Assembly (NCBI RefSeq): GCF_028728065.1
Contig: NZ_CP117812.1
Span: forward strand, 682,001-746,000
Source: Lentisphaera profundi
GTDB taxonomy: Bacteria; Verrucomicrobiota; Lentisphaeria; Lentisphaerales; Lentisphaeraceae
DNA: 64,000 bases
Reading direction: 5' to 3'
In this document: one piece after another, positions 27,784-41,555 of the stretch
Numbering within the stretch: the first letter of the stretch is position 1
Layout: every line of letters starts with the position of its first letter
Program-made: the position numbers and the translations under genes
Notes under the pieces: model-generated
The model's input: only the letters and a program-made list of their open reading frames with translations
What the model was told of the DNA's origin: nothing
Database searches by the model: none

Positions 27784-27802
27784 ACTGATTTATTTAATCA
27801 GT
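27784..27802. terminator. Hairpin between convergent genes
   Basis: ACTGATT-TATTT-AATCAGT overlaps the stop codon of the leftward kinase gene and lies just past the mutarotase stop. There is no T-run, so it is only a weak candidate. Confidence 0.3.
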
Positions 27803-29850
27803 AAGTGAATATTGCTTCTCAGTGATTTAATCTGATGAGGTAAGAATTGTTTTTTAGCAATAATAACAAATTTTAAGGAGGCTAAGTTGTTGAGGGGGCT
27901 GAGGTCACTTACGAGTGTCTCCCGTAAATCAATTTCTTCGAGTAGATCTAAGCCTCTGAGTTCTTTCAAGTCGTGGATTTGAGTGCCTCGAATATCGAGT
28001 GTTTTTATTGCGAGGGGAGCGAGTAAAGACTTGCGGTGGTCAGTCATTCCACGCGTGCCAAGTATTTTAAAGTCTAGGCCTTTTAATTGTAGTTTTTTAG
28101 TCTCAGGATCGTAGCTAAATTGACTATTTTTTAAGCCACCATTGCGGGTGGCCAGCATGTGTTGAACTATTTGTTCGTAGGAAGTTTTATCTAACCTTAA
28201 TTCTGAGTCGTAGGCCATGACTTTTTCCATGAAGATCTCATTGCGATCATTGAAGGAAGTGAATAGTTTAATGAATTGACTTATGGGAATTAAGCCTTGA
28301 GGATTTTTGGGAGTTTTTAAATATTTTTTGGCTGATTTGAAGAGAGCATGGCGCGGGTTTTTATCTTTATGAAGATCGTATACAGCCTGGAAATCTTGAG
28401 CGATAAAATGATACTCAGATAAAATATTATTCCTCGCGGGGTCAGGTTTATTTGCGGTGAAATTTATTATTTTTTCTTGTACGCTTTTAACGGGGTTACG
28501 GTAATCAATTCGTTGAAAATTCGAGGGCTTCACAAGGCTTTTTTGAGCGTTTAAGGCGGCGACTCGCTTTTGTTCATTTTGATAAATAAGAATGAGTCGT
28601 TCGGCTTCAAGATGAGCATCGGTGGCTTTCTTTTCAGCAGACTCAGCGAGGGTCTTTGCAAGTAGTGCTTCTTTTTGAGAGGCAATGGCTTGCTCGGTTT
28701 TTGTATTGAGGTTAAAAATGAACTGCAGGGTCAGAGTGATAAGGACCAGGATAAATAAGACGGATAAATGGACGAGAGCACGATTGCGTTGGTAGAGAAG
28801 TTTGATGCCTTTTAGTATAGAGGCATTTTCTGCATCGGTTGCAAAGCCCGCGAGGTAGTTATAGACTTCGTCGCGCAGTTTGGTGACGCTTTGGTAGCGA
28901 TCTTCTTGTTTGAGTGAAACGGCTTTCATAACAACCGCATTCAGACTTTCGGGGGTCTTAAGGTGAGGGAACCTCACTTGTGGAGAGAGTATTAAACCTT
29001 TTGACGTTTTTTGAAGGACTTCTTGGGTGTCGCCTTCAAGAGGGTAACAGTTTGTGAGAATACTGTAAAGTAGGCAGCCGAGAGCGTAGATATCGGTAGT
29101 GGTATTTTTTTCGAGTTCTTTATTAATTTGCTCTGGAGCCATGTAGCCGGGAGTGCCTTTGACCTGGCCTGTTAGGGTCATGTTATTGAGCCAATCTGAG
29201 TTAAAGAGTTCTGCGTCACAAGAATGCTCTTTCGATCCTATGATTTTGGCTAAGCCCCAGTCGCACACCAAAACTTCCCCAAAGTCGCCAACCTGAATAT
29301 TGGCAGGTTTAATATCTAGATGAATGACGCCTTTTGAGTGTGAAAAGGCAATGGCATCACAGATTTTAATAAATATCTCGAGTAGTTTATTGAGGGGGTA
29401 GGAATCTATGTATTCTGCTTTGTTAGTATTTTTGGAGCGTAATATCTTTTCTAGATTATCGCCTTCTTTGAGTTCCATGGTGAAAAAAGGACTATGGTCT
29501 TCGTCGACGCCGAGGTCATGGACGGTCATGATATTGGGGTGTTCCAAAAGTCCTGTTATACGAGCTTCGCAAATGAAGGGGTCGTAAAACTCTTTTCCTG
29601 CTTCGCTATGGAGTTTAGCCATGGCGATATAGCGGCCGGCGACAGAGTCGAACACCCGGTAGATTTTTTTCATGCCACCTTGATTGATTGCTTCGGGATC
29701 TAGGTAGCGTTTTTTAATAATTTCAAGGCTCTCAAATAGAGGGCTACTTTGCGTGGAATCGTCATTTGAACTATCCAAGGCCGTATCAAATAAGGATAAG
29801 AGATTATCCATTTTTGTATGTTGAGGTTCTTCTTTGCTCGAGGGAGTCAT
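27790..29850 (-). CDS. Membrane Ser/Thr protein kinase with leucine-rich C-terminus
   Basis: 686 residues. The kinase domain (about 50-340) has INQGGMKKIYRVFD, K79 in IAMAKLH, HLDIKPANI (D179), D197 in VCDWGLAK (DWG in place of DFG) and GTPGYMAPEQ. One transmembrane helix lies at about 355-378, then a coiled coil, then a region ending in LRR-like repeats (LDIRGTQIHDLKELRGLDLL, IDLRETLVSDLSPL). The kinase domain faces the cytoplasm. Planctomycete-type kinases of this plan often partner ECF-like sigma factors; here the sigma gene lies six bases upstream on the same strand. Substrates are unknown. Confidence 0.85.
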   Translation of the reverse strand: MTPSSKEEPQHTKMDNLLSLFDTALDSSNDDSTQSSPLFESLEIIKKRYLDPEAINQGGMKKIYRVFDSVAGRYIAMAKLHSEAGKEFYDPFICEARITGLLEHPNIMTVHDLGVDEDHSPFFTMELKEGDNLEKILRSKNTNKAEYIDSYPLNKLLEIFIKICDAIAFSHSKGVIHLDIKPANIQVGDFGEVLVCDWGLAKIIGSKEHSCDAELFNSDWLNNMTLTGQVKGTPGYMAPEQINKELEKNTTTDIYALGCLLYSILTNCYPLEGDTQEVLQKTSKGLILSPQVRFPHLKTPESLNAVVMKAVSLKQEDRYQSVTKLRDEVYNYLAGFATDAENASILKGIKLLYQRNRALVHLSVLFILVLITLTLQFIFNLNTKTEQAIASQKEALLAKTLAESAEKKATDAHLEAERLILIYQNEQKRVAALNAQKSLVKPSNFQRIDYRNPVKSVQEKIINFTANKPDPARNNILSEYHFIAQDFQAVYDLHKDKNPRHALFKSAKKYLKTPKNPQGLIPISQFIKLFTSFNDRNEIFMEKVMAYDSELRLDKTSYEQIVQHMLATRNGGLKNSQFSYDPETKKLQLKGLDFKILGTRGMTDHRKSLLAPLAIKTLDIRGTQIHDLKELRGLDLLEEIDLRETLVSDLSPLNNLASLKFVIIAKKQFLPHQIKSLRSNIHLLIK

Positions 29851-29856
29851 GTATAA

Positions 29857-30444
29857 TCAATATTCCAATTGGCTAACGAGGGCTCGGACTTCTTCCATGA
29901 ATTTCTTTTTAACACGGTTTTTAAGTACGTAAACGGAATCTTTTTTGAGATTGAGTTGTTCGGCAATGGCATCGGTTGTCATGCCTTTCATCGAGAGCTC
30001 AAAGACTTCGATGGCATTTCCTGAAAATAGTGATTCCATTTTTTTGAATGCGAGCTCACAAATATAGGATTTCCATTCTTTTTCAATCATTAGGTCGAGC
30101 TCGGATTGAGGGGTCGAGTCGAGGTAGCTATTCATTTCGCTGGCATCGCGCTTGGCTTGGTTAGCTTGCTTGCGATAGTAATTCATGGTTGTATTGCGAA
30201 TTACGGCACCCATCCAGTTTCGAAACGAGGCTTTTTCTTTATCGTATTTCTCTAAATCTTTCCATAGGCTAAGTAAAATCATTTGAGTTAAATCATCGGT
30301 ATCCGCCCCAGAGAAACGAAGCTTATAGATGAGGACCTGAATAAATTGTTTGTAGTAGGAGACGAATTCTTCCCAGGCCTGATAATCATCTGGATTTTTG
30401 GCGCGCTGAAGGAGAGTCTGGCGGGTAGCCCATTCATTACTCAT
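29857..30444 (-). CDS. ECF-like RNA polymerase sigma factor
   Basis: 195 residues. Region 2 is DTDDLTQMILLSLWKDLEKYDKEKASFRNWMGAVIRN (about 46-84), with the RNA-polymerase and -10 contacts. Region 4 is MTTDAIAEQLNLKKDSVYVLKNRVKKKF near the C-terminus, a helix-turn-helix for the -35 box. It belongs to the PVC sigma factors found beside Ser/Thr kinases. The kinase follows six bases on, so the two are almost certainly co-transcribed; phosphorylation or membrane sequestration of the sigma factor is a natural hypothesis but is not shown by the sequence. Confidence 0.85.
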   Translation of the reverse strand: MSNEWATRQTLLQRAKNPDDYQAWEEFVSYYKQFIQVLIYKLRFSGADTDDLTQMILLSLWKDLEKYDKEKASFRNWMGAVIRNTTMNYYRKQANQAKRDASEMNSYLDSTPQSELDLMIEKEWKSYICELAFKKMESLFSGNAIEVFELSMKGMTTDAIAEQLNLKKDSVYVLKNRVKKKFMEEVRALVSQLEY

Positions 30445-33246: not shown

Positions 33247-34452
33247 ATGATGATAAAGACAGACAATTTATTGATCAATGTGGATTATGGCCTGACAAAT
33301 GGGCGTGTGATTCACAACTGTTCTATTTTATGTAGAGATAAGAGTATATATGCAATTGGTGGAGCCTCATCATTTAAAGAAGCCGTCTATACACATTGCC
33401 TAGATTTGAAAGACTGTTATGCGGTTCCTGGATTTGTCGATGGACATATCTATGGCTTTGGGAAAATATCGCTATTAGATAGTATGGATGTAAATGCCTT
33501 GAGTGTAATGGCAAGAGAACTTCCTGCACATGGAGTAACGAGTTTTTTGGCCACTCTACAATCAACGAATCGCCCTAAGTTGATAGAAGCCTTGAAACGT
33601 ACGAGTGATAATATCCTCAATCAGGAAGATGGTGCGGAAGCTTTAGGGATTCACTTGATTGGTCCTTTCATTAACCCTGAATTAAATGGTCTGGTGAGAG
33701 ATGAAGGAGTTCGCAAGTACAGCAGAGATGAATTAGAAGAGATTATTGAAGCGGCACAAGGAACCTTGAAGGTTATGACCCTGGCTCCAGAAGTTGAAGG
33801 AGCACAAGAAATAATCGAAATTCTTACTAAAAATGGAATCCAAGCTTCGATGGGGCATAGCAGTGCCAATGAACATCAAGTTCATGCATCGATGAAGGCA
33901 GGAGCACGCAATGTAACTCACCTCTATAATTGTATGAAGCCTCTACATCAAAGAGAAATGGGGCTTTCGTCTACGGCGCTCGTTGATGAGAGTTTAACTT
34001 GCGAACTTATTTTTGATGGTTTTCATATTCATCCACAGATGCTGGATTTAGCCTGTCGTGCTAAGGGTGGGGACAAAATTTCGGCAGTATCATCTGCGAA
34101 TCAAGGAACGGGTTTACCTGATGGACGTTATAAATTTGATGAGAATGAATATATTATTGAGGATCAACATTTATTATTGCCTGATGGAACAATCGCAGGA
34201 TCGATGTTGACCCTTGAGCAAGCTTGGCAAAATGTGATTAATTTCACCCATATGAATACAAAAGAAGCAATAGCTTGTTTTACCTCTACACCAAGTACAT
34301 CTTTAGGCTTAAGTGACCGCGGACATTTGTCTCCGGGCTTAAAAGCGGATATTGCAATTTTTAATAAAGATCACGAGTTACAAGCAACTTTAATCAATGG
34401 CAATATTGCCTACATCAAAAATGAAGAAAATTTGAGGCAGATAAATGACTAA
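33247..34452 (+). CDS. NagA-like amidohydrolase with lost active-site residues
   Basis: 401 residues with the N-acetylglucosamine-6-phosphate deacetylase fold (VPGFVDGHIYGFG, HGVTSFLATL, MGHSSA, THLYNCMKPLHQREMGL, DGFHIHPQML, GSMLTLEQAW, LSPGLKADIAIFN). Three usual active-site features differ. The metal-ligand Glu of LEGP is Ile (HLIGPFINP), the catalytic Asp of VTDA is Ser (AVSSANQGTG), and the H-x-H start is H-I-Y. The His ligands in MGHS and THLYN remain. So it is unlikely to be a normal deacetylase; it may bind ligand, use a different chemistry, or be degenerate. It overlaps aroG by 8 bp and starts an operon of three. Confidence 0.75.
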   Translation: MMIKTDNLLINVDYGLTNGRVIHNCSILCRDKSIYAIGGASSFKEAVYTHCLDLKDCYAVPGFVDGHIYGFGKISLLDSMDVNALSVMARELPAHGVTSFLATLQSTNRPKLIEALKRTSDNILNQEDGAEALGIHLIGPFINPELNGLVRDEGVRKYSRDELEEIIEAAQGTLKVMTLAPEVEGAQEIIEILTKNGIQASMGHSSANEHQVHASMKAGARNVTHLYNCMKPLHQREMGLSSTALVDESLTCELIFDGFHIHPQMLDLACRAKGGDKISAVSSANQGTGLPDGRYKFDENEYIIEDQHLLLPDGTIAGSMLTLEQAWQNVINFTHMNTKEAIACFTSTPSTSLGLSDRGHLSPGLKADIAIFNKDHELQATLINGNIAYIKNEENLRQIND

Positions 34453-35782
34453 TTGGACTCCCGATTCCTGGAAAACGAAAGAGATTTTTCAACAGCCAAA
34501 ATGGCCACAAGATAAGTTAGAAGAAACTTGTGCGAAATTAGCCAAGTTGCCTCCTTTGGTTTTTGCGGGCGAAATTGAATCTTTGAAAACCCAATTAGCG
34601 GCGGCTTCTCGCGGCGAAGCTTTTTTACTTCAAGGGGGAGATTGCGCAGAAGATTTTAGTTCGTGCAATGCACCTTATATAAGAGAGACGATGAAAGTAC
34701 TGCTGCAGATGGCAGTCGTTTTAACTTTTGGTGGCAATAAAAATGTAGTGAAAGTGGGTCGTATTGCAGGTCAGTATGCAAAACCACGCTCGTCCGATAC
34801 TGAAATGGTTAATGGCATAGAAATACCTTCTTATAGAGGTGACTGTGTCAATAGCCCCGAAGCGAATTTAGCAGCTAGGACTCCAGATCCGGATCGTTTG
34901 TTGCAAGCGTATTTCCATTCTACGGCGACTTTAAATTTATTGCGTGCCTATGTTCAGGGTGGTTACGCGGATTTACACAAAGTTCATGTGTGGAATAAAG
35001 AGTTTGTGGCAAATTCCTCCGCAGGTAAGCGTTATGAGTCGATTGCGGCTAAAATTGATTCGGCGATTTCTTTTATGGAAGCCTGTGGGGTGAACTCTAC
35101 ACAAGTTCCGCAGTTACAGAGAACCAATATTTACACTTCACACGAAGCTTTGATTTTACCTTTTGAGCAAGCGATGACACGTCAGGATAGCCTATCTGGA
35201 CGTTGGTATGACTGTTCGGCACACATGGTGTGGATTGGTGATAGAACTCGACAAATTGATGCAGCTCACATGGAGTTCTTTCGTGGTATTAATAATCCTG
35301 TTGGCATGAAAGTGGGGCCCAGTATGGATGCCGATGAATTGATTAAAATTTTGGATGTCTTAAATCCTAATAATGAAGAAGGGCGCATTAATCTGATTAG
35401 TCGCTTTGGCCATGGTAAAGTTGCATCGATGTTGCCGCCACTCGTTAAACGCGTGCGTGACGAAGGTCGCAATGTACTTTGGAGTTGTGATCCGATGCAC
35501 GGCAATACTTTCACAGCTGCCTCAGGCTTTAAGACTCGTGATGTTCAATTTATCACAGATGAGATAAAAGCATTCTTTGATACACATGGGGAAGCTGGAA
35601 CGGTGCCTGGTGGTCTTCATTTTGAACTTACTGGTGCCAATGTAACGGAGATTTGTGGTGGAGCGCAGAAAATTTCTGATCTTGATTTAGCAAAGAATTA
35701 CCAGACAAATTGTGATCCACGATTGAATTGTCAGCAAAGTCTTGAATTGGCTTATGATATTGCGGAAATGTTGCAAAAATGA
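34445..35782 (+). CDS. Class II 3-deoxy-7-phosphoheptulonate synthase
   Basis: 445 residues. LLQGGDCAEDF, KVGRIAGQYAKPRS, YRGDCVNSPEANLAARTPDP, WIGDRTRQIDAAHMEFFRGINNP, KVGPSMDADEL, RFGHGKV, WSCDPMHGNT and PGGLHFELTGANVTEICGGA are the classical class II (plant-type) DAHP synthase motifs. It condenses erythrose-4-phosphate with phosphoenolpyruvate at the first step of the shikimate pathway. No feedback-control domain beyond the usual N-terminus is visible. Its reading frame overlaps both neighbours (8 and 4 bp), so the three genes are one transcript. Confidence 0.95.
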   Translation: MTNWTPDSWKTKEIFQQPKWPQDKLEETCAKLAKLPPLVFAGEIESLKTQLAAASRGEAFLLQGGDCAEDFSSCNAPYIRETMKVLLQMAVVLTFGGNKNVVKVGRIAGQYAKPRSSDTEMVNGIEIPSYRGDCVNSPEANLAARTPDPDRLLQAYFHSTATLNLLRAYVQGGYADLHKVHVWNKEFVANSSAGKRYESIAAKIDSAISFMEACGVNSTQVPQLQRTNIYTSHEALILPFEQAMTRQDSLSGRWYDCSAHMVWIGDRTRQIDAAHMEFFRGINNPVGMKVGPSMDADELIKILDVLNPNNEEGRINLISRFGHGKVASMLPPLVKRVRDEGRNVLWSCDPMHGNTFTAASGFKTRDVQFITDEIKAFFDTHGEAGTVPGGLHFELTGANVTEICGGAQKISDLDLAKNYQTNCDPRLNCQQSLELAYDIAEMLQK

Positions 35783-37230
35783 TTTTATCGGAGCTCTCTA
35801 CTTATGAAAGTTTGAGTGAGCGTGAACTTGCTCAGTCAATCAAAGCTATTGAGCTCCAGTTAAGTTATCTGCAAAGACAAATAGCAGATAATGATATTCC
35901 CGTTTTCATTCTTATTGATGGTTTATCTACCGCAGGCAAGAGTGCTTGTATAGGTCATTTAGTACAGGCTTTTGACCCACGTTTCTATCGTGTGGCTTCG
36001 GGTTTAAAAAAGAAAGATCAGATTTCATGGCTCCAGCCTTTTTGGGATGCGAACCCCGCAAAAGGGACGATTAGTTTTTTTGATCGTTCATGGTACCGCA
36101 TGGCTTTTCGCAAAGAACTTGCAGCAGAAGGCTCGGGATGTAATTATTTTGATGAAGCAGTGGAGTTTGAGAAAAAGCATTTGCTGAATGGTGCACTTGT
36201 GATAAAGATTTTTTTACATATTTCCAAGGATACTCAAGCTGAGCGCCTGCAAATTTTGAAAGCAGATAAAAAGCTTGCTTGGCGAGTCGATAAGCATGAC
36301 TTCGAGCAAAATAAAAACTTTGACAAGTACCAGCATGCCGCAAATGAAATGATTGAGAGATCAGATTTTTCACAATCATCGTGGAATATTATTCCTGCGG
36401 ATAATCCCTCTTACGCCTTTTTGAAAGCCTCTGAATGCCTGGTTAAGGCAATGACTGACTTTATGAGTGAGCGTAAGCAAGATCTAGCTATCTCTAGTTC
36501 TTTAAGTGATTGTGCGATTCCGAAGCGTCCCGCTTTACAGAGTTCGGATATTAGCAAGAAAGATTATGAAAAGCAATTGCCTAAGCTTCAGCAGCGTCTT
36601 CAGGAGCTTTCTTATAAGCTCTATAAGAAAAAGCGTTCTGCCATTATTATGTTTGAAGGCTGGGATGCAGCGGGCAAAGGCGGTGCGATTAAAAGGCTTT
36701 TACGTTTTGTCGACCCACGAAATTATCGAGTATGCCCGATAGCGGCGCCGAGTTCACTTGATAAGCGTCATCATTATCTCTGGCGTTTTTGGACTCAATT
36801 TCCCGACTTGGGAAATTTATTGATTTTTGATCGTTCATGGTATGGCCGCGTTTTAGTTGAGCGAGTAGAAGGCTTTTGCTCAGAAGATGAATGGCAACGT
36901 GCCTATGATGAAATTGCTTTAACGGAAAAACATCTTGTCAAGGAAGGTGTGATTGTGATTAAATTTTGGCTTGATATCGATAAAGAAATCCAAAAAGAAC
37001 GCTTTGATTTACGTTTGAAAACATCTCACAAGAGTTGGAAGATTACCGACGAAGACTGGCGTAATCGTGAGAAGTGGGATGAGTATGATGATGCTATCAA
37101 CGAAATGATCTTTCGAACTTCACGCAAAGGCGCGAAGTGGAATGTGATTGAAGGTAATAATAAAAAGTATGCGCGTATTCAAGTCTTGCAGCAAACTATC
37201 AAGGCCTTTGAAAAGGCCTTGGATAGTTAG
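35779..37230 (+). CDS. pap: Polyphosphate:AMP phosphotransferase (tandem PPK2)
   Basis: 483 residues with two PPK2 domains. Domain 1 (about 40-240) has FILIDGLSTAGKSACIGHL and FFDRSWYRMAF. Domain 2 (about 260-480) has IMFEGWDAAGKGGAIKRLL, DPRNYRVCPIAAPSSLDKRHHYLWRFW-type lid residues and IFDRSWYGRVLVERVEGF. Class II PPK2 enzymes of this kind use polyphosphate to phosphorylate AMP to ADP. Domain 1 has weaker lid motifs and may be structural, as in known two-domain PAPs. The ATG overlaps the DAHP synthase stop by four bases. Confidence 0.9.
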   Translation: MILSELSTYESLSERELAQSIKAIELQLSYLQRQIADNDIPVFILIDGLSTAGKSACIGHLVQAFDPRFYRVASGLKKKDQISWLQPFWDANPAKGTISFFDRSWYRMAFRKELAAEGSGCNYFDEAVEFEKKHLLNGALVIKIFLHISKDTQAERLQILKADKKLAWRVDKHDFEQNKNFDKYQHAANEMIERSDFSQSSWNIIPADNPSYAFLKASECLVKAMTDFMSERKQDLAISSSLSDCAIPKRPALQSSDISKKDYEKQLPKLQQRLQELSYKLYKKKRSAIIMFEGWDAAGKGGAIKRLLRFVDPRNYRVCPIAAPSSLDKRHHYLWRFWTQFPDLGNLLIFDRSWYGRVLVERVEGFCSEDEWQRAYDEIALTEKHLVKEGVIVIKFWLDIDKEIQKERFDLRLKTSHKSWKITDEDWRNREKWDEYDDAINEMIFRTSRKGAKWNVIEGNNKKYARIQVLQQTIKAFEKALDS

Positions 37231-37233
37231 AGC

Positions 37234-40200
37234 TTACTGAGTCAATAAGAACTTGATGGCGTCAATGATACTGGCCGCCACTCTTTGAGGCGAGCTTTGG
37301 TAGATTAATTCCCAGGCCTGAGCTTTGCGCTCTTGGTAATGCTGAGCTTGAGCAGGGTATTTGTGGAGCCAATTGAGTCTGACAGCATGGCCAATGATCA
37401 CATCAAGCACGATATAATCATCGAATTTAAGGCTAGGATTGGCAATGGAGAAAGCGCCAATGGCACTTAATGATTCGATACACAAATGGCGGTAATCTGC
37501 AGCGGGGATATCGTTGAGAAGGTTATCTGCAAGAAAAGCAAAAGCAGGTTCGCCAGTAGTCATAGAACTCAAAACTAAAGATGAATCGATACAGTTTGAG
37601 CTATTAAACTTATTCCCCAGAATAATGCCCTTACAATTCTCTAGGATTTTGCGAAGTTTAGGATAAAAGCTTTTAGGGAGTTTTGAAATAGCGCCATTTT
37701 GCAAGCGCCATGTAGCCCAGTTTGCGACGCGAGTTTGGAACTCTTCATCAATGCTGCCCTTATTGAAATCAGTTTCTTGAGTTTCACAAGTATAGTTAAT
37801 AAACTCAAGGCTCTGCATATTATTTTGCATTTCTTTGTATGCGGCTAAAACTGTTTTTAGACGAGTTTGAATTGCTTGTGGAGGCATAGCGACCAAGAGA
37901 TCGAAGGCCTGGCCTTGTGATATTTTTAATTCTGATGCAATTTGAGCCACGATTAAGTGAATGAATTCACTCGTGCGAATAGAGATCATATTATTGAAGA
38001 GTGTGGGGTCTTGTTTTACGACGTAGCTCAAGAATATGAGTAACTCTTGGTGAATGAGTTCTTCGCGGCTATCGTGGCCACAACTCTTTTTGATTTTTTG
38101 AATGATATCATCATTATTCATGGATTGGTTGATAATGCCGTCTTTATTGTAAGATCGCCCAACAATGACAATTTTTTGTCTAACCAGTAATTCTGTGACC
38201 GCATCATCTAAACCAAAATGAGATTTGTTTAGTAGTCCAGCAATACTACGAACAATTGCCCAGATTCGTTGTTCGCACGCGTGTTGATAAACTTCTTCCA
38301 ATAAGATATGTAATGATACGTCTTCTTGTTTGTTTTGGATGAAACAAGAGAAAGCTAATGAGTGCTTCTTAGCTAGGTAGACTAAGGTTTTTGCCTGGCG
38401 ATAAAGATTTTTTGTGGTATTGAGCTCCTCAATCAGCTCATCTTCGCTAGGTTCTTGAGCTAAACGTTCCATTGTTGTGGGAGAGAGTTCAATTGTCTCG
38501 CTAGGGCAACAATCTAAATAATACGTAGGTTTCACATTGGAGTTGAGAGTTGGACAGTATGAAGGAAGGTCAGGAACATTCACAATAGATTTTATAGGCG
38601 TGTTTTTTACGGCCGTATTAAAGTCTACGATATTTGCATGTGGAACCTGATCAGACTGCATGTCTTGTAAAAACTGATACAAATCAGGAGCATCTTCACC
38701 TTCGAGCATATCAGCTTTGATAAAGAGTGCTTGGATTGCCTGGCCATCACTCGTCCAATGACGACTTATGTAAGAAAATTCAGATTTAGCTTCTTCAATA
38801 AGTATACGGTTATCTAATTCTAAGTAAAAGTCTTGGTGATTTTGGTACTGTGGTAAAAATAATGCAGGTTTACCATTGATGTGGTAGAGGCGTGAAGTTG
38901 CCATGGCGCGTAAGCGGCGTTTTGGTCGTCCGCTGAGTTCGAGCTTCGTATTAGCACCCATTTCAAAAAGGATTTCAGCCAGTTCATTTGGGTACATTAT
39001 TTTTGTGGGTTCAATTTCATCTAAAGTTTGACTTGGGATCCCTTTCGAAGCCAAAGTTTCTTGTACAGAAGGCGACATGGAAATGATGCAGACTTGGACA
39101 TTTTTAGGCTTTTCTTCCAGATTTTGTGAATGCCTATTGAGAGGATCTAAATCACTGAGTGCTAAAACTTTTTCTTCAATCATTCTACCGAGTAAGAATA
39201 GACTTTGAGCCCAGATAAGAGGAAGATTATTATTGGGGACTCGGTCTTGGCTATGGGGAGTTTCTTTTTCGGCATCAACGGCATCGTTGGGGACAAAGTA
39301 GAGTTCTGGTAAAAGTTTCAAACCATCTTTTTCGACTAAGAGTGAGTCGAGTTTTTCTTTGTATTCACGGGCTTCGTTTTTATCATCGCGAAACAGAGCA
39401 TCAAGCATTAAATAGGTAAAAAAGAGCGGCCACTCAGATTCGATATCTTTAAAATTCTTGAGTTCACTTGTTTCGTAATGAAGTCTGTGCTCGTCTTCCA
39501 TGACTGTTTGGTGACCATCGAGTAAAAACCTTTTACAGCCGTAGCGACCGCCAAGTTTTTGTACAATTTCTTTGCGAGTACGTTCTCGAAGTTCAGGGTC
39601 TTCAATAGCAAAAGCGGGATAGCCAACAATACTGAGTACAGCTGCATCGACTTCTTTGGAATAAGATTCACGGGGCAATAAGGCTTGTAGAGTGCTGCGT
39701 GAGCGAGCGATTTCGTCGCCCATTACATGAATCAAAGAGGATTGATCGCCATCGTCGCCAAAGAGATTCATTTCGTCCATGGCTTCTAAAGCAGCTTTTG
39801 CCATGCCGACAGAGCTGGCATTAACTTCTGCCATGCCATTATTGATTTTGTGTCCACGTTCCCAAATGCCGAAATCGGGAGTTCTGTAGGCGCGACCAAT
39901 ATAATGAACGAGGTTTTGGACAAAATCGACTTCGTCATGACTATAAATAATACGCAAGCCAGATTTTGTCATTTGAGCAATCATTAAGAGGAAGATGGAA
40001 GTCGCATCTAATTGTAAGTGACCCCATTGATCATCACCGACAACAGTCTGTCCTGATTGGGTATCATATTTTGCGTGAAGCGCATCGAGAGGATCTTGGC
40101 TATATTTAAATTTTTCGACTTTGTGAGATTGACGAATCATAGCTTGTAGCAAGCCGCGCATGAGTTTGACAACGGATTGTTCCAAAGAATAGGCCCGCGC

Positions 40201-40419
40201 ATTATTGACGGATGATTTGCGGTAGGCCATGGCGAGTCCCCAAACGGCCTGGATGGTGTAGACGTTATCTCTTACCCAAGCATCGGTGTAGTCGCCGTGT
40301 TCATTAATATCTGTACTGGCGGGGAAGAGTCCAGTTAAAGGATCTTGACGAATTAGAATGGTTTGATTCACTTCTTGGTAAAATTGCTCGAGAATAGATT
40401 CAGTCTTTTGTGTACTCAT
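37234..40419 (-). CDS. Phosphorylase kinase alpha/beta subunit homologue (GH15-like)
   Basis: 1061 residues. The N-terminal (alpha/alpha)6 domain (about 1-430) carries the eukaryotic phosphorylase kinase alpha/beta wording: DAWVRDNVYTIQAVWGLAMA, LEQSVVKLMRGLLQAMIRQ, VVGDDQWGHLQLDATS, FGIWERGHKIN, EVNASSVGMAKAALEAMDEM, SKEVDAAVLSIVGYPAFA, and RYGCKRFLLDG. The next part (about 435-620) has VQVCIISMS, IEPTKIMYP, KLELSGRPKRRLRAMATSRL and SRHWTSDGQAIQALF, again as in that subunit. The C-terminal helical part is less conserved and ends FLLTQ with no lipidation box. In eukaryotes these subunits regulate glycogen phosphorylase kinase; a role in glycogen or starch control is inferred. No phosphorylase or calmodulin-like gene is next to it. 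Confidence 0.85.
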   Translation of the reverse strand: MSTQKTESILEQFYQEVNQTILIRQDPLTGLFPASTDINEHGDYTDAWVRDNVYTIQAVWGLAMAYRKSSVNNARAYSLEQSVVKLMRGLLQAMIRQSHKVEKFKYSQDPLDALHAKYDTQSGQTVVGDDQWGHLQLDATSIFLLMIAQMTKSGLRIIYSHDEVDFVQNLVHYIGRAYRTPDFGIWERGHKINNGMAEVNASSVGMAKAALEAMDEMNLFGDDGDQSSLIHVMGDEIARSRSTLQALLPRESYSKEVDAAVLSIVGYPAFAIEDPELRERTRKEIVQKLGGRYGCKRFLLDGHQTVMEDEHRLHYETSELKNFKDIESEWPLFFTYLMLDALFRDDKNEAREYKEKLDSLLVEKDGLKLLPELYFVPNDAVDAEKETPHSQDRVPNNNLPLIWAQSLFLLGRMIEEKVLALSDLDPLNRHSQNLEEKPKNVQVCIISMSPSVQETLASKGIPSQTLDEIEPTKIMYPNELAEILFEMGANTKLELSGRPKRRLRAMATSRLYHINGKPALFLPQYQNHQDFYLELDNRILIEEAKSEFSYISRHWTSDGQAIQALFIKADMLEGEDAPDLYQFLQDMQSDQVPHANIVDFNTAVKNTPIKSIVNVPDLPSYCPTLNSNVKPTYYLDCCPSETIELSPTTMERLAQEPSEDELIEELNTTKNLYRQAKTLVYLAKKHSLAFSCFIQNKQEDVSLHILLEEVYQHACEQRIWAIVRSIAGLLNKSHFGLDDAVTELLVRQKIVIVGRSYNKDGIINQSMNNDDIIQKIKKSCGHDSREELIHQELLIFLSYVVKQDPTLFNNMISIRTSEFIHLIVAQIASELKISQGQAFDLLVAMPPQAIQTRLKTVLAAYKEMQNNMQSLEFINYTCETQETDFNKGSIDEEFQTRVANWATWRLQNGAISKLPKSFYPKLRKILENCKGIILGNKFNSSNCIDSSLVLSSMTTGEPAFAFLADNLLNDIPAADYRHLCIESLSAIGAFSIANPSLKFDDYIVLDVIIGHAVRLNWLHKYPAQAQHYQERKAQAWELIYQSSPQRVAASIIDAIKFLLTQ

Positions 40420-40547
40420 GATTGATGGGTAGCTTATTTTTAAATTATAATTTATAAAATGATAGTTGAGCTTTGCCTTTTGGGTATGAAGATTTTATAA
40501 AAATAAAAGACTTTTTTTAAACTTGTGTTCAAGAAGAGCTTAATCAC

Positions 40548-40582
40548 AAAAAAAAATGACGAACTTCTGTAAAGAGTTCGCC
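40548..40582 (-). terminator. Intrinsic terminator after kinase gene
   Basis: Read leftward, CGAACT-CTTTACAGA-AGTTCG is followed by TCATTTTTTTTT. It lies between the kinase at 40611 and the phosphorylase-kinase-like gene, so these two are probably not a simple operon. Confidence 0.7.
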
Positions 40583-40610
40583 ATGATAAAAGTGATGGTA
40601 CGGGTATTAA

Positions 40611-41555
40611 TTAATCATATAGATCAGGGAAAAATTTCTTCATGAAATTTTCCATAGATACAATTGTGGGGCCATAACCATCTTTATAAATAAAATATTC
40701 CAGAGCCGTACACATTTCGTCTGCAGTTTGGAAACGGTCGCAAGGTTCAACTTGAATGGCGCGAAATAAAATATTTTCTAATTCAGTAGGGAGGTCATCC
40801 GGTAAAGCATCCATGTTGACCGCTCCGGCGCAAGCGAGTTCAAAGAGTTCGGATTCATTCTCAGCATCTCGGCTAAAGTTACCCGATAGTAATTCGAAGA
40901 GTACCATGCCTAAAGCATAGATATCGACTCTCTTGTCAACTTTTTCTTTTCGTGCCTGTTCAGGTGCCATGTAAACGAGTTTTCCCATGAGGCATTGATC
41001 GTTACTGGTGATAGAATTTGAGAGTGCTTTGGCAATACCAAAATCAGTGAGTTTGGGCAAGCCTTCTTTGGTGACTAAAATATTATTGGGGCAAATGTCT
41101 CTGTGGACAATGCCTAAGTTACTTTTATTGATGTCGCAACGATTGTGTGCATAGGCTAAGCCTCGAGCGATCCGACTGGCGATAAATACGGCTAAAGGAT
41201 ATGGCAGGGCGAGGTTGTCTTCGCGAAGGCGATCAATCATATCGTGGAGGCCAATGCCTTCTACGAGCTCCATAACAATGAAGTGACCAAAGGGTGCGCG
41301 TTCGAGTTGGTAAATTTGAACTATATTTTCATGGACTAAATTCGAGACAAGTTTGGCTTCAGAGATGAACATGTCTATAAAGCGTTGGTCCTCGTCCATG
41401 TCGGCTAAAAGTGTTTTGATGGCTACTTTTTTGGTGAAGCCCTCAGCACCAAGTATTTCTGCTTCGTAGACTTCCCCCATTCCGCCAGCTGCAATGAGGT
41501 TTAAAATCTTGTAATTGGTACTCGATTTTAAAACCTTTGGCATTTTTTTATTCAT
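40611..41555 (-). CDS. Soluble Ser/Thr protein kinase
   Basis: 314 residues, essentially a bare kinase domain: LIAAGGMGEVYEAE, VAIKTL (K47), GIVHRDICPNNIL (D153 in HRD), LTDFGIAK (D171 in DFG) and MAPEQARKEKVDKRVDIYALGMVLFELLSG. No transmembrane segment is visible. It uses classical HRD and DFG motifs, unlike the two membrane kinases in this window. It is divergent from the DNA ligase gene and precedes the phosphorylase-kinase-like gene on the same strand. A regulatory link to that protein is possible but only inferred. Confidence 0.9.
   Translation of the reverse strand: MNKKMPKVLKSSTNYKILNLIAAGGMGEVYEAEILGAEGFTKKVAIKTLLADMDEDQRFIDMFISEAKLVSNLVHENIVQIYQLERAPFGHFIVMELVEGIGLHDMIDRLREDNLALPYPLAVFIASRIARGLAYAHNRCDINKSNLGIVHRDICPNNILVTKEGLPKLTDFGIAKALSNSITSNDQCLMGKLVYMAPEQARKEKVDKRVDIYALGMVLFELLSGNFSRDAENESELFELACAGAVNMDALPDDLPTELENILFRAIQVEPCDRFQTADEMCTALEYFIYKDGYGPTIVSMENFMKKFFPDLYD

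Follow-up and report, generated by a model that had tools for sequence, protein, structure and literature searches.

A 64,000-nucleotide stretch of the Lentisphaera profundi genome (contig NZ_CP117812.1, positions 682,001 to 746,000; hereafter the window) contains the gene for a bacterial protein related to the alpha and beta subunits of phosphorylase kinase (PhK), an enzyme that was among the first regulated kinases to be studied. The coding sequence (37234..40419, minus strand) runs from 40419 to 37234 as an uninterrupted frame for 1061 amino acids, and the plus strand of this region is riddled with stop codons. No signal peptide was seen in the product. A reading of the DNA letters alone had proposed a full-length bacterial homologue of PhK alpha/beta, and this original prediction is confirmed by Pfam and PDB matches, by a family profile, and by structure overlay. 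Glyco_hydro_15 (PF00723) covers residues 12–816 (1e-86) and KPBB_C (PF19292) residues 830–1060 (37240..37932, minus strand; 5.3e-78), both far above cut-off. The predicted succession of a GH15-like domain and regulatory-type domains is therefore present as PF00723 plus PF19292, collinear with human alpha and beta. In a sequence search of the PDB, the only strong relatives were human PhK alpha (9e-216) and beta (3e-162), with 53% identity to alpha over approximately 566 aligned residues (domains D1–D2) and 38% to beta. The motifs that the prediction had quoted (DAWVRDNVY, VVGDDQWGHLQLDATS, SKEVDAA, and LELSGRP) all occur in the translation, and bacterial members of the family are, as it had stated, already present in databases, namely in Pfam. 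Family profile searches found a single GH15 match and a single KPBB_C match in the L. profundi genome. Consequently, there is no alpha–beta pair of paralogues in this genome; a homo-oligomer is possible.

Domain Architecture and Predicted Structure

The N-terminal domain D1 (residues ~3–430; 39130..40413, minus strand) is an (alpha/alpha)6-type GH15 domain according to its structural matches to GH15 enzymes. It is followed by a D2-like region (residues ~435–620; 38560..39117, minus strand), the limits of which were inferred from the alignment with alpha. In PhK, D2 is glucanotransferase-like (PMC10978961). The prediction had named residues 435–620 as the part that would find no match if the protein were an ordinary GH15 glucoamylase. 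This part does align with PhK: a phmmer search matched residues 10–578 of the query to alpha and 10–851 to beta, and positions 6–635 of the family profile also align through to alpha. The lack of a C-terminal lipidation box, likewise part of the prediction, is evident from the end of the chain (...FLLTQ), which carries no CaaX motif; the same is true for all bacterial homologues examined (0/96 with CaaX).

A structure model built from a 37-sequence alignment (mean pLDDT 80.6, pTM 0.78) superimposes on PhK alpha (8jfk, 8z5m) with a Z score of 49.0 over 773 residues (3.4 Å, 42% identity) and on PhK beta with a Z score of 40.8 over 812 residues (2.8 Å). A Foldseek search gave a concordant result. 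The best structural alignments reach approximately residue 865, so that the PF19292 part lies mostly beyond them and is supported by sequence profiles. The next-best matches are GH15 glycosidases and glucoamylases, which cover residues 1–434 only (Z 20–26). Among the matches to D1 are the GH15 glycosidase 5z3e (Z 25.7, model residues 3–419), the bacterial glucoamylase 1lf6 (Z 24.2), and Aspergillus glucoamylases (Z approximately 21); the structural neighbors of D1 are active GH15 enzymes. The bacterial protein shares the D1 fold and the catalytic glutamate pair with such enzymes (5z3x, 1lf6, and Aspergillus 1gai), but identity is only ~13–18%, and the glucoamylases lack D3–D5 and KPBB_C.

Compared to human PHKA1, the protein has the same five-domain fold and an equally intact GH15 glutamate pair. 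Unlike human alpha, it has no CaaX farnesylation box, and its linkers are shorter: the matches to D2 and D3 are 82 instead of 187 residues apart, and the linker near the C-terminal third has 34 residues instead of 83. Human PHKB also shares the fold but differs by a CaaX box and an N-terminal extension of ~40 residues. Cyanobacterial and gammaproteobacterial PF00723+PF19292 proteins show no essential difference from the L. profundi protein: they are full length, of the same size, and 38–49% identical, and they retain both the catalytic and the ADP-site residues described below.

Catalytic and ADP-Site Residues

Cryo-EM of human PhK has identified Glu185 and Glu371 as the catalytic glutamates of alpha and has shown that beta has lost some catalytic residues (PMC10978961). 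The same study placed beta Arg211, Tyr213, Arg214, and Arg274 around the diphosphate of adenosine diphosphate (ADP) at the D1/D2/D4 junction. We mapped these positions by aligning human alpha and beta with 96 bacterial homologues. Glu187 (39859..39861, minus strand) corresponds to alpha Glu185 and Glu372 (39304..39306, minus strand) to alpha Glu371, the second GH15 glutamate. Both are glutamate in every bacterial sequence (96/96 each) and in alpha, whereas beta retains the first and carries lysine in place of the second. The residues Trp48, Arg50, Asp51, Asp129, Trp132, and Asp138 in the region of the pocket are equally invariant (96/96); of the bacterial residues, beta has also lost D46, W48, R50, D129, W132, and D138.

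The opposite pattern holds at the ADP site. Arg176, Tyr178, and Arg179 (39883..39894, minus strand) align with beta Arg211, Tyr213, and Arg214, and Arg239 (39703..39705, minus strand) aligns with Arg274, the fourth ligand of the diphosphate. These residues are conserved in 96, 95, 90, and 95 of the 96 bacterial homologues, respectively. Human beta has R, Y, R, and R at these positions, while alpha has A, Y, K, and H and has thus lost three of the four. Of the columns conserved among the bacterial sequences, 225 are also represented in both human subunits. The bacterial residue persists in alpha and beta at 143 of these, only in alpha at 52, only in beta at 16, and in neither at 14. The beta-only set includes three of the four ADP ligands together with the neighboring P181, R241, T243, and E251. 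Since 161 of 615 aligned beta residues coincide with a bacteria-conserved residue, the probability of finding all four ligands by chance is approximately 0.005, or 0.012 if only arginine and tyrosine are considered.

The bacterial family therefore retains in one chain what the human subunits hold separately, the GH15 glutamate pair (alpha) and the ADP cluster (beta), an observation that appears to be new. To judge from the residues shared with beta, ADP may bind at the bacterial cluster. The pattern also fits an ancestor that would have carried both sites, which were later split between two eukaryotic paralogues.

Distribution and Phylogeny

A scan of a genome collection found over 500 related loci, and the relatives found were all full length. 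The best 80 of these are nearly all cyanobacterial; the others are from a Lentisphaerales metagenome-assembled genome (MAG; 62% identity), a Chromatiaceae MAG, and Reinekea blandensis. The homologue in L. marina is 82% identical. Among cyanobacteria, the laboratory strain Synechococcus elongatus PCC 7942 also gives a KPBB_C match. Among 388 genomes of the phylum group, KPBB_C occurs only in the three Lentisphaera genomes; within the order to which the Lentisphaerales MAG belongs, it occurs in three of five genomes. In the class of Reinekea, 14 of 369 sampled genomes contain the gene, a patchy distribution among gammaproteobacteria.

Maximum-likelihood analysis placed the Lentisphaerota sequences in a single clade next to Reinekea, within the gammaproteobacterial part of the tree (SH-aLRT 98–100). 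Cyanobacteria form a separate group, and human alpha and beta fall outside on long branches, with their placement left open. The grouping of Lentisphaerota with R. blandensis (L078; support 98) suggests gene transfer, and the tree is most simply read as an exchange of the gene between Lentisphaerota and marine gammaproteobacteria, with nothing that points to a eukaryotic source. We rejected a recent transfer from eukaryotes or a contamination, because two congeners show the same synteny and the sequences nest beside Reinekea with human alpha and beta outside. Carriage by a plasmid was also considered, but the single match was weak (18% coverage).

Gene Neighborhoods and Glycogen Genes

In eight of 15 gammaproteobacterial loci (L078, L108, L113, L114, L115, L117, L118, and L120), the immediate neighbor of the homologue is a glucokinase gene. 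Six of these loci have it downstream, on the same strand, and the other two have it upstream; two glucokinase subtypes are represented. Start and stop codons of the two genes overlap in L108 and L115; in L113, a glucokinase open reading frame (ORF) truncated by the contig end overlaps the end of the gene. A simple binomial estimate puts the probability of this adjacency by chance below 1e-16 if shared ancestry is ignored. Four of the loci (L113, L115, L117, and L118) belong to one clade, which lowers the effective sample size; even so, no fewer than three arrangements are seen. In Reinekea, the gene is located between glucokinase and a 4-alpha-glucanotransferase-like ORF, followed by an ABC transporter ATPase (names by sequence reading). 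A glucokinase would be an expected neighbor for a GH15-type protein if that protein yields free glucose. This linkage of the bacterial family to glucokinase appears not to have been described before. Cyanobacterial neighborhoods differ in that no constant functional neighbor was found.

The gene content of the L. profundi genome was assessed family by family with profiles, and the maltodextrin enzymes searched for were those of the families named here. There is one classical glycogen phosphorylase and a branching enzyme. No GH77 (MalQ) match was found, and GT5 glycogen synthase matches are only weak and partial, which makes for an unusual glycogen gene set. With no GH77 match, short maltodextrins may have to be processed by a different enzyme, and a GH15 enzyme is plausible in this role.

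Functional Interpretation

Our favored reading is that the gene encodes a stand-alone, soluble protein of the PhK alpha/beta type that would act as a GH15-type hydrolase of alpha-glucans or maltodextrins, possibly under control of ADP, and not as the subunit of a kinase. We assign this reading a probability of roughly 0.45. Its parts differ in strength. That the protein acts on or binds alpha-glucans is probable. Given the two glutamates, we lean toward a catalytically active hydrolase, and the conserved cluster makes us lean to a similar degree toward binding of a nucleotide or phosphate at this site.

A possible catalytic cycle would begin with the binding of a non-reducing end by D1, either of maltodextrins that are imported or derived from glycogen or of the outer chains of glycogen itself. 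The pair E187/E372 would hydrolyze the glucan by an inverting two-glutamate mechanism and release glucose, which would then be phosphorylated by a glucokinase. The phosphate-binding cluster formed by R176, Y178, R179, and R239 at the D1/D2/D4 junction may bind ADP or a related nucleotide. Binding could shift D2–D5 against D1, so that glucan breakdown would follow the energy state of the cell.

Several observations weigh against this interpretation. First, the human alpha-gamma-delta complex and the holoenzyme showed no activity in vitro on maltose, isomaltose, and glycogen despite the glutamate pair in alpha (PMC10978961). Second, the stretches 187–192 and 298–326 at the active site are of low confidence in the model, which precludes an argument from the modeled pocket. 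Third, R179 is absent from six gammaproteobacterial sequences, and the comparison of the ADP site concerns the four diphosphate ligands named in PMC10978961 and not the contacts to adenine. Finally, the glucokinase link is absent in cyanobacteria and in Lentisphaera (0 within 8-kb flanks), and the L. profundi genome gave no match to the glucokinase family PF02685, in a search that did not include ROK-type glucokinases.

The inactivity of human PhK, which contains the same glutamate pair, means that intact residues are no proof of activity, and makes a non-catalytic sensor the main rival explanation. According to this scenario, the GH15 pocket would only bind glucans, as that of PhK alpha seems to do, and the protein, as a sensor of glucans or nucleotides, would regulate a different enzyme through direct contact, for instance glucokinase, glycogen phosphorylase, or an enzyme of glycogen synthesis. 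The approximately 640 residues of D2–D5 that lie outside the GH15 domain and are conserved across phyla are consistent with such a role. So is the fact that the operon partner in most loci is glucokinase rather than a transporter. On the other hand, the catalytic glutamates and pocket residues are invariant even in homologues with only ~38–45% identity, and a protein that does no more than bind should be able to lose the second glutamate, as beta has done. Because both glutamates are invariant in all bacterial sequences and one is lost in beta, we favor catalysis and regard a purely sensory function as less likely.

An improbable alternative is that the protein hydrolyzes or transglycosylates another alpha-linked sugar, such as trehalose, isomaltose, or a dextran-type glucan, and represents a side branch of GH15 like trehalase or dextran dextrinase. 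GH15 and its structural neighbors do include trehalases, glucodextranase, and dextran dextrinase, and the model leaves the details of the pocket uncertain. However, the match to the NCBIfam trehalase TreH1 is far below the cut-off (27 vs 820 bits). The glucokinase link fits any activity that releases glucose and does not separate this alternative from an alpha-glucan hydrolase.

The remaining question is whether the protein could be part of a bacterial counterpart of PhK. Directly upstream, on the same strand, lies a gene for a PknB-type Ser/Thr kinase of 314 residues (40611..41555, minus strand), and this arrangement is found in three of three Lentisphaera genomes. This kinase might serve as a catalytic partner that phosphorylates glycogen phosphorylase, of which the genome encodes one of the classical type, or other glycogen enzymes. 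Yet the 5.46 Mb genome contains 105 matches to Ser/Thr kinase domains, so that a kinase would neighbor the gene on either side by chance in approximately 5% of cases, or upstream on the same strand in 1%, for an assumed number of genes. Many of these matches are in ORFs of ~640–730 residues. One such kinase in the window (27790–29850, minus strand) lies directly downstream of an ECF-sigma-like ORF (29857–30444, minus strand), which suggests an expansion of repeated sigma/kinase pairs.

The upstream kinase gene and the PhK-like gene are probably separate transcription units, since each of the three Lentisphaera species has an intrinsic terminator (40548..40584, minus strand) behind the stop codon of the kinase. 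Its hairpins have energies of −12.4 to −13.1 kcal/mol, with z scores from −3.6 to −5.5, and are followed by a T run. The conserved intergenic sequence ahead of the PhK-like gene contains a promoter-like element (TTTAAA-N18-TAAAAT, 40492..40521, minus strand), which is a weak candidate, as the count of such sites is near chance. No close relative of the kinase was found in the examined flanks of the homologues in the Lentisphaerales MAG, cyanobacteria, or gammaproteobacteria. The exceptions are distant: a kinase-like domain in L108 and another located 13.8 kb into L016. The divergent neighbor of the homologue in L108 (12514–15813, plus strand) is a protein of 1099 residues with a diverged N-terminal kinase-like domain that has HGN instead of HRD.

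The proteins themselves argue in the same direction. The upstream kinase finds its best PDB matches among bacterial PknB/StkP-type kinases and ends shortly after the kinase fold, which leaves no room for an autoinhibitory domain of the gamma type. In human PhK, alpha Lys588 and Tyr593 dock the gamma subunit (PMC10978961); in the alignment of the family profile with alpha, the corresponding bacterial positions are not lysine and tyrosine. The alignment of the L. profundi glycogen phosphorylase with the human enzyme starts only at human residue 26, and approximately 10 residues of the bacterial chain precede that point. The N-terminal stretch of animal glycogen phosphorylase is the phosphorylated region, and this region is therefore missing from the bacterial enzyme. 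Furthermore, of 20 genomes that contain a homologue, five yield no more than weak, partial matches to the phosphorylase family, and one, possibly an incomplete assembly, yields none. In view of the 105 kinase matches, the conserved terminator, and an adjacency limited to the genus, we set the upstream kinase aside as a bacterial gamma subunit and judge it to be outside the system; a bacterial analogue of PhK is the least probable of the explanations, and the protein is likely not a subunit of a PhK-type kinase.

On the other side of the gene, a two-domain PPK2-like ORF of the polyphosphate:AMP phosphotransferase type (35779–37230, plus strand) ends three bases from the stop codon of the PhK-like gene. 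This tail-to-tail arrangement is kept in all three Lentisphaera genomes. The ORF is the last in a co-directional run with overlapping ends (33247–37230, plus strand) that also comprises N-acetylglucosamine-6-phosphate deacetylase-like and class II DAHP synthase-like ORFs and is conserved in the three species. All of these ORFs were named by sequence reading.

Conclusions

A full-text literature search, which did not reach papers in subscription journals, found no study of the bacterial family, and the term phosphorylase kinase is absent from the available portion of a 2024 review of prokaryotic alpha-glucan enzymes (PMC11046441). The role of the glucoamylase-like domains of PhK is itself still open (PMC10978961). 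A bacterial protein that comes without a kinase and combines the catalytic pair of alpha with the ADP cluster of beta makes this role testable. If our reading is true, a large bacterial family, with more than 500 loci, would gain a function, and there would be an explanation for how marine bacteria and cyanobacteria could couple the use of glycogen or maltodextrins to their energy state. More tentatively, we envisage a bacterial glucan hydrolase gated by ADP, with the GH15 site and the ADP switch in one chain, and an animal PhK that would have emerged by duplication and division of the two functions, with kinase and calmodulin added later. The subunits of the animal kinase could have evolved from an ADP-controlled glucan enzyme, and the L. 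profundi protein looks like one of that kind.

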